The notes beneath the pieces are model-generated. The model was given only the letters and a program-made list of their open reading frames with translations, was not told where the DNA came from and made no database searches. Shown here piece by piece: positions 9,520 through 40,766 of a stretch of 42,442 bases of DNA; positions within the stretch are counted from its first letter, which is position 1; every line of letters begins with the position of its first letter. The position numbers and the translations under genes were made by a program. The DNA comes from Microcaldota archaeon. Its GTDB lineage: Archaea > Micrarchaeota > Micrarchaeia > Micrarchaeales > Micrarchaeaceae. Where the stretch lies: assembly GCA_021822165.1 (NCBI GenBank), contig JAKARM010000001.1:1-42442 (forward strand). The letters are read 5' to 3'.

Positions 9520-10848
9520 ATGGCGGACTACAACCACCAAGACATAAAGGACTTGGAGGAGGAGATATTGAACAGGATGGGCGGAAGGTTCGTCAACGTC
9601 GTAGATCCGAAAAAGAGGCTTAGCATAGTGACATCTGTCGCAAAAACCATCAACCCGGCAATAAGCGAGGAGGAGATAAAGGAGATAGAGAAGGACATGT
9701 CCAACTTCTCGCCCATCGAAGAGCTGCTTGCGGACCAGTCCATAGAGGACATAATGATAAACAACACAGACAACATCTTCGTCTATGATACGGAAAAAGG
9801 GGCAAAAATGCTCGATATCAAGATGGATAAGAAGGAGCTGGATAAGTTCGTCGGAAAGCTGAAACTGTATGCGACCAGCTCGACTTCGAAGGGAAACATA
9901 ATGGACATCCACCTGCCCACAAAGAGCAGGGTCAACGTGGTGTCGTCGCCCCGTGGCTACGACGTCACAATAAGAAACTTCAAAAACAGGCCAATGAGCA
10001 TGATAGACCTGATAAATACAGGTGAGCTTGACTATGATATCGCTGCGCGGCTCTGGCTTTATGTTGATGGTTTTAGGATTAGGCCGGCAAACCTCCTCAT
10101 AGGAGGCATGCCTGCCGCCGGAAAAACAACCCTGCTTAACGCATTTTTCTCGTTCTTCAGGCCGGACACCAGGATAATAACGCTGGAGGATACTTACGAA
10201 ATAGACATAAGCACCCAGGACAACTGCGTTGCGCTTGAGACAAACGACGACCTCACCATGAAGGACCTCGTCAAGAACGTACTTAGGATGAGGCCGGACA
10301 TGATAATAATCGGTGAGGTGAGAGGGGAGGAAGCTAATGACATGATGACGGCCATGAACATAGGAAAGATAGTCATAGGCACCATACACGCATCGTCGTC
10401 CAGGGATATCGTGAATAGGCTGCAGCACCAGCCGATGAACGTCCCCCCAGACATAATACCCCTGATCGATGCCATTGTGGTGCTTTCGAATCTCTACGAG
10501 AACAAAAAGCCGGTAAGAAAGGTCGTGCAGATATCTGAAATCGCAGGGATGGAGAGCCAGATTCTCCTATCTGATCTATACAAGATAGATTATAAAACCC
10601 ACAAGGCCTCGCAGTCCATACAGAATTCAGTCACATACAGGGACACCGTAGCACGCCTGCTTGGGATATCCCCGACAGACATAATCGCGGAAGAGAGGAT
10701 ACGGGCCATGATACTGGAAAAACTCAACAAGTTGGGAAGGAGGGACATAAGGAGCATAAATGAAATCGTGAGGGACTACTATGACAACCCGGACATGACA
10801 CTGAAGAGGCTTGGCATAAATAACATGTCCCCGGCGATAAATGTCTGA
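9520..10848 (+). CDS. Type II/IV secretion system ATPase (VirB11/archaeal pilus-like)
   Basis: GGMPAAGKTTLLNAFFSF (Walker A), ITLEDTYEI, RMRPDMIIIGEVRGEEANDMMTAMNIG, GTIHASSS. Confidence 0.92.
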   Translation: MADYNHQDIKDLEEEILNRMGGRFVNVVDPKKRLSIVTSVAKTINPAISEEEIKEIEKDMSNFSPIEELLADQSIEDIMINNTDNIFVYDTEKGAKMLDIKMDKKELDKFVGKLKLYATSSTSKGNIMDIHLPTKSRVNVVSSPRGYDVTIRNFKNRPMSMIDLINTGELDYDIAARLWLYVDGFRIRPANLLIGGMPAAGKTTLLNAFFSFFRPDTRIITLEDTYEIDISTQDNCVALETNDDLTMKDLVKNVLRMRPDMIIIGEVRGEEANDMMTAMNIGKIVIGTIHASSSRDIVNRLQHQPMNVPPDIIPLIDAIVVLSNLYENKKPVRKVVQISEIAGMESQILLSDLYKIDYKTHKASQSIQNSVTYRDTVARLLGISPTDIIAEERIRAMILEKLNKLGRRDIRSINEIVRDYYDNPDMTLKRLGINNMSPAINV

Positions 10849-11831: not shown

Positions 11832-12572
11832 ATGGTAATTGGTGTTTTTATACTAATTTGCGGGGGGGATGAGGCTGGCAGAGGGGCATTGATAGGCCCG
11901 CTTGTAGTCGCCCTCGTGGTGTTCAAAAAGGGCAGCGAGAAGAAGCTTGCCAGGATTGGCGTAAGGGACTCAAAACTGCTGAACACGAAGAGGAGGGAGG
12001 AGCTCTATAAAATTATCAATAGCTTGGCAATAGATACGAAGGTCGCCAAGATAGATCCGATCCAGATAAACGAGGTAATGAAAAACAAGATTTCCCTTAA
12101 TGAACTGGAGGCGATGCATTTTTCCAGGCTCTTCGACAAGCTACAGACGGATGTCGACCTCATGTACTTAGACTCTCCAGATGTCATAGAGGAAAAATTC
12201 GGGGTAAGGGTAAATATGCTCACCGTAAAACCCACAAGGGTCGCGGGGATAAAGTCTGCCGTGCAGAAAGGTGTGAAATACACAAAAATAATATCCGAAC
12301 ACAAGGCAGATACGAAGTATGCTATTGTTTCTGCGGCGAGCATAATAGCGAAAGTCACAAGAGACAGGGAGATGAAAAAGATAGAGAAAAAATTAGGGAT
12401 AGATTTGGGGTCGGGGTATCCATCTGATATTTACACCACCGATGCTGTAAGAAAGCACATGAAAAGCGGCATACTCAAGGATTACATAAGGGAGAGATGG
12501 GCAACGATGGACAGGATAAGGCAGACCCGATTGACAACATTCGGTTTCAGGTCGTTGGATACCGAACTGTAA
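11832..12572 (+). CDS. rnhB: Ribonuclease HII
   Basis: CGGDEAGRGALIGPLVVALVV, DSKLLNTKRREEL, YAIVSAASIIAKVTRDREM, GSGYPSD. Confidence 0.95.
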   Translation: MVIGVFILICGGDEAGRGALIGPLVVALVVFKKGSEKKLARIGVRDSKLLNTKRREELYKIINSLAIDTKVAKIDPIQINEVMKNKISLNELEAMHFSRLFDKLQTDVDLMYLDSPDVIEEKFGVRVNMLTVKPTRVAGIKSAVQKGVKYTKIISEHKADTKYAIVSAASIIAKVTRDREMKKIEKKLGIDLGSGYPSDIYTTDAVRKHMKSGILKDYIRERWATMDRIRQTRLTTFGFRSLDTEL

Positions 12573-12594: not shown

Positions 12595-12701
12595 GGGTCT
12601 GTGGCGCAACTTGGATAGCGCACCTGGCTTCGGACCAGGGGGTTGCGGGTTCAAAATACAGTACCGGATTCCCAGTACTTATGAAATTCCCGCCAGATCC
12701 G
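12595..12701 (+). tRNA. tRNA-Arg(TCG) with a 32-nt T-loop intron (12656..12687)
   Basis: Acceptor GGGTCTG/CAGATCC, D stem GCGC/GCGC, anticodon stem CCTGG-CTTCGGA-CCAGG, T stem GCGGG/CCCGC; splicing out 12656-12687 yields T-loop TTCAAAT. Confidence 0.9.
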
Positions 12702-22398: not shown

Positions 22399-22505
22399 TG
22401 CAGGGGGTGAGATTTGAACTCACGAAGGCGCTAAGCCACAGGATCTTAAGTCCTGCGCATTTTTCTGTGGCCAGACATCGCCAGACCAGACTCTGCCACC
22501 CCTGC
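22399..22505 (-). tRNA. tRNA-Leu(TAA) with a 23-nt D-loop intron (22462..22484)
   Basis: Acceptor GCAGGGG/CCCCTGC, anticodon stem CAGGA-CTTAAGA-TCCTG, long variable arm, T arm GTGAG-TTCAAAT-CTCAC; removing 22462-22484 gives D arm GCA-GAGTCTGGTAA-TGC with A14, G18G19, A21. Confidence 0.9.
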
Positions 22506-40627: not shown

Positions 40628-40766
40628 TGGGGTTGCAGGGATTTGAACCCTGATATGCAGGTTACTTCATGTTTGGTTTTTGGATTCCAGATACTCATCA
40701 CTGCCATATGGCTCAAATAAATAATCATCTGGAGCCTGCCGCGCTGCCAAGTTACGCTACAACCCC
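40628..40766 (-). tRNA. tRNA-Trp(CCA) with a 66-nt intron at 37/38 (40663..40728)
   Basis: Acceptor GGGGTTG/CAACCCC, anticodon stem GCAGG/CCTGC, loop CTCCAG|A, T arm CAGGG-TTCAAAT-CCCTG; removal of 66 nt leaves a 73-nt tRNA. Confidence 0.9.

Follow-up and report, generated by a model that had tools for sequence, protein, structure and literature searches.

A predicted bulge-helix-bulge intron at position 59/60 of a tRNA-Arg(TCG) gene in the archaeal family Micrarchaeaceae

The window analysed here is a stretch of 42,442 nucleotides (nt) from a Microcaldota archaeon of the family Micrarchaeaceae (assembly GCA_021822165.1, contig JAKARM010000001.1, here C36:1-42442), whose genome comprises 784 kb in 37 contigs and is 89% complete. 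At 12595-12701 of its forward strand lies a tRNA-Arg(TCG) gene with an interrupted T-loop, flanked by rnhB and by an opposing reading frame whose end is 12712. Sequence, coordinates and anticodon agree with the original prediction, in which the gene had been read from the letters alone as a tRNA-Arg(TCG) with a 32-nt intron. The features of the locus are the following:

12595-12655, + strand: 5' exon of tRNA-Arg(TCG), from the acceptor stem through T-loop position 59 (TTCAAA)
12656-12687, + strand: 32-nt intron at position 59/60, ATACAGTACCGGATTCCCAGTACTTATGAAAT, holding the inner helix and the intron-side TGAA of the central helix
12688-12701, + strand: 3' exon of tRNA-Arg(TCG), with T60, T-stem CCCGC, acceptor CAGATCC and discriminator G73
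12645-12693, + strand: putative bulge-helix-bulge, with outer T-stem helix GCGGG/CCCGC, central helix TTCA/TGAA, bulges AAA and ATT, and inner helix UA(C)AGUAC/GUACUUA
11832-12572, + strand: rnhB (RNase HII), upstream of tRNA-Arg(TCG) and near it in 25 of the 29 relatives examined

The arms of the tRNA are intact, including the acceptor stem GGGTCTG/CAGATCC (with one G-T pair), the D-arm, the anticodon arm with its loop CTTCGGA (anticodon TCG) and the T-stem GCGGG/CCCGC. The T-loop breaks off after TTCAAA (positions 54-59) and continues at T60 beyond the insert, which is thus situated between nucleotides 59 and 60, the 5' exon ending in TTCAAA and the 3' exon beginning with T. Once 12656-12687 are deleted, the remaining 75 nt fold into a perfect cloverleaf called as Arg(tcg) by ARAGORN; the same program gives no call for the 107-nt unspliced precursor, and the unspliced gene reaches 27.5 bits with the Rfam tRNA model, below the 29-bit cut-off. 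Standard searches miss the gene, as the original prediction had warned they could. A strict bulge-helix-bulge can be drawn for the precursor, as had been proposed: a 4-bp TTCA/TGAA helix lies between two 3-nt bulges, and the inner helix has 7 bp and a single bulged C.

A search for the 5' exon covered 85 genomes of the family and matched 77 of them; 80 tRNA-Arg(TCG) genes could be read. An intron of 13-82 nt occupies the same junction in 59 of these genes, and the other 21 are intronless, all of them reading TTCAAATCCCG with the loop TTCAAAT, the predicted spliced product. The exons average 91% identity to the window gene, and the inserts are mostly unalignable. After removal of near-copies, 48 distinct inserts were retained for helix statistics: 44 of them form the whole central helix with TTCA at the required offset (against 1.5% at other offsets of the same inserts), and the segment between the bulges closes end to end in 35/43 inserts (15% in shuffles). 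Within an insert, 3.8 of the first and last five bases are paired, compared with 2.3 when ends are swapped between inserts, and the observed value was attained in 0 of 5000 permutations. Since the ends of the inserts and their self-complementarity are what has been kept, the conserved part corresponds to what a splicing endonuclease needs. The status of the insert as an intron is far beyond chance, because of the 59 inserts at one junction, the 44 central helices over so low a background and the 21 empty sites.

These comparisons also bear on two other explanations of the locus. The gene could be a decayed tRNA pseudogene with a random insertion, its CGA codons being read by another tRNA, and its absence from standard searches would fit such an origin; we nevertheless reject this as very improbable, given the intact arms, the exons conserved throughout the family while the introns diverge, the identical insertion point in 59 genes, and a search with the mature tRNA-Arg(TCG) that found no second TCG gene in the 89%-complete genome (an intact intronless copy elsewhere being the finding that, according to the original prediction, would have spoken against the intron). 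Other Arg tRNA genes seen in the genome have anticodons CCG, GCG, TCT and CCT (the same CCG gene standing at two contig ends), and the genes of the window do use CGA codons, though seldom (10 among 6733). Alternatively, the insert might be excised at a junction displaced by one or two bases, as the A and T runs at both sites permit several 7-nt loops, e.g., TTCAATT. This proposal was likewise rejected and seems hardly more probable, as TTCAAAT is the loop of 21/21 intronless homologues and the bulge rule yields it in 59/59 intron-bearing ones; on this comparative ground, excision of exactly 12656-12687 (an intron after position 59), as first proposed, is the expected outcome.

The genome encodes a splicing endonuclease of a type that, to judge from its sequence, is able to cut non-canonical positions. 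Its EndA (C36:97968-99158, - strand), the only one found in the genome, consists of three fused units over about 390 amino acids and matches the ARMAN-2 EndA 4FZ2 at 2.3e-172, with 388 amino acids aligned along its length, which assigns it to the epsilon2 type and agrees with the broad-specificity enzyme that had been predicted. Judged by the 4FZ2 alignment, the protein retains the catalytic triad of Y236, H251 and K282 as well as Y160 and K161, two residues of a loop that have been connected with broad substrate range (PMC12397907, PMC6379350). The protein is 59-67% identical to those of 24 named records, nearly all of them titled Micrarchaeota, Micrarchaeum or Micrarchaeaceae and seven Marsarchaeota, and homologues, mostly of similar length, occur in 143/146 genomes of the phylum. 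The RNA ligase RtcB is also encoded in the genome.

We infer that this archaeal tRNA-Arg(TCG) gene is functional and that its non-canonical 59/60 intron is spliced through a bulge-helix-bulge by the epsilon2 EndA and RtcB, a reading to which we assign a probability of about 0.95. The precursor would be transcribed with the intron, and intron and T-stem would fold together as the bulge-helix-bulge; the endonuclease would then cut each 3-nt bulge after its second nucleotide (12655|12656 and 12687|12688), and RtcB would ligate the exons, restoring the T-loop TTCAAAT. Two points weigh against it: the central helix stays open when the precursor adopts its minimum-energy fold, the bulge-helix-bulge lying 1.8 kcal/mol higher by nearest-neighbour energies, and a second TCG gene may exist elsewhere, the assembly being 89% complete.

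The history of the intron can be approached through rnhB, which in the 25 relatives mentioned shares a 3-kb stretch with the tRNA gene and is mostly directly upstream of it, in intron-bearing and intronless species alike. An unrooted rnhB tree covering 26 genomes requires a minimum of three changes of intron state, which fall on well-supported branches, and intronless species are nested among intron-bearing ones. Ancestral presence followed by three precise losses would be the simplest reading of this tree, although gains instead of losses may also be compatible with its unrooted count. The intron was probably already present in the ancestor of the Micrarchaeaceae, diverging freely except at its ends and being precisely lost in some species.

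Interrupted T-loops are not restricted to this gene. At least seven further tRNAs of the genome, collected by searches and by stretches in a list that may be incomplete, are interrupted at 59/60, namely Arg(TCT), Lys(TTT), Lys(CTT), His(GTG), Ala(GGC), a Ser tRNA read as GGA and a Leu tRNA read as CAA, the insert of the latter being found by inspection. Most of these inserts form the full 4-bp central helix; those of Lys(CTT) and Leu (CAA) lack the strict motif and would need a relaxed EndA specificity. A T-loop insert pattern, which mixes true introns with chance matches and was used only in bulk against a reversed control, gave 142 matches (14 in the control) in 39 Micrarchaeaceae genomes, 55 (8) in 24 genomes of another family of the order and 111 (21) in 53 genomes of the rest of the class. 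Inserts at other positions were also observed. The tRNA-Ser gene, at about 1425-1570 of stretch L066 (contig C26), carries inserts in both the anticodon arm and the T-loop and is absent from the results of the Rfam whole-genome tRNA search. Within the window, a tRNA-Leu(TAA) gene (22399-22505, - strand) holds a 23-nt D-loop intron (22462-22484) with a strict bulge-helix-bulge (TCTG/CAGA), ARAGORN calling Leu(taa) after its removal and nothing in the unspliced gene, and a tRNA-Arg(CCT) gene (40628-40766, - strand) contains a 66-nt intron in the anticodon loop.

In some relatives, a 27-nt sequence, AAACTTTTGGAAAAAGTTTAATCAAAA, is found both in Arg(TCG) introns and in anticodon-arm introns of tRNAs read as Thr, Gly and Ala, with some further copies being intergenic (stretches L175, L177, L180 and L185). 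The element is rare, occurring in 5/41 genomes when two mismatches are allowed, and the reversed control gave none. Its sharing resembles, by analogy, the intron transposition proposed for Thermoproteales, and shared hairpin constraints may account for part of it. The window gene might accordingly be functional and spliced and its insert still be a recent copy transposed from another tRNA gene instead of an inherited intron. Besides the 27-nt element at both positions in relatives, this would suit the common ends ATAC...TTATGAAAT of the Arg(TCG) and Arg(TCT) introns of this genome; however, the window intron does not contain the element, and the nesting of intronless copies within intron-bearing ones on the rnhB tree fits ancestral presence and losses, so that we regard a recent transposition as unlikely here, and an inherited intron as the better account. 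At the scale of the phylum, we tentatively suggest, as something possible though less than an even bet, that in Micrarchaeota the T-loop, near-identical in all tRNAs (GGTTCAAATCC), serves as a common landing site. Since nearly every tRNA can build a bulge-helix-bulge with an intron that ends in TGAA, introns could be copied from one tRNA gene to another, and also from 59/60 to the anticodon arm or back, to be precisely lost afterwards. If so, the 27-nt element would be a footprint of intron movement.

Two other loci of the genome involve partial tRNA sequences. A stretch of about 3.9 kb on contig C17 (C17:1-4200, stretch L043) looks like an integrated element. It has the tRNA-Arg(CCG) gene at one boundary and, at the other, a directly repeated copy of the 3' end of that gene (C17:4006-4030), and for three of its reading frames no match above the cut-off was obtained in Pfam. 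On contig C23 (stretch L039), partial Ala-like tRNA 3' ends (C23:9249-9270 and 10526-10576) lie near a complete tRNA-Ala and are possibly integration remnants.

The primary ARMAN paper of 2011 reportedly described many disrupted tRNAs in ARMAN-2. Reviews exist of tRNA disruption in ARMAN-1 and -2 (PMC4033280) and of T-loop introns and epsilon2 enzymes (PMC6379350), and the epsilon2 EndA of ARMAN-2 (Ca. Micrarchaeum acidiphilum) and its substrates represent the same enzyme type in a close relative, with introns at varied tRNA positions (PMC12397907, PMC6379350, PMC4033280). Non-canonical intron positions catalogued in archaea include 59/60, 20/21, 22/23, 53/54 and 56/57 (PMC4090602); the rarity originally attributed to T-arm introns was consequently overstated, the 59/60 intron being moreover the majority state in Micrarchaeaceae tRNA-Arg(TCG). 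The catalogued 59/60 introns have position, bulge-helix-bulge and, by prediction, protein splicing in common with the window intron, which differs from them in its occurrence in Micrarchaeaceae, in the tRNA-Arg(TCG) of most members, with clean presence or absence among orthologues. The junction 59/60 in the T-loop is also that of the permuted tRNAs of Thermofilum and Cyanidioschyzon (PMC3218864), whereas the window gene has the normal exon order and an intron rather than a permutation. Similar intron sequences in different tRNAs have been described as transposed introns in Thermoproteales (Fujishima 2010, as reviewed in PMC4033280), a likeness that here is a lead in some relatives only.

Both 59/60 introns and epsilon2 enzymes are thus already described, and the window gene adds one more case; the newest lead is the intron sequence common to different tRNAs and positions. 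Without intron-aware annotation, the tRNA-Arg(TCG) gene is overlooked and the genome wrongly seems to have no tRNA for CGA. The Micrarchaeaceae offer dozens of orthologous genes in which a single defined site has an intron or lacks one, together with a known splicing enzyme, and are therefore a good natural system for studying the gain and loss of archaeal tRNA introns and the co-evolution of these introns with broad-specificity endonucleases.
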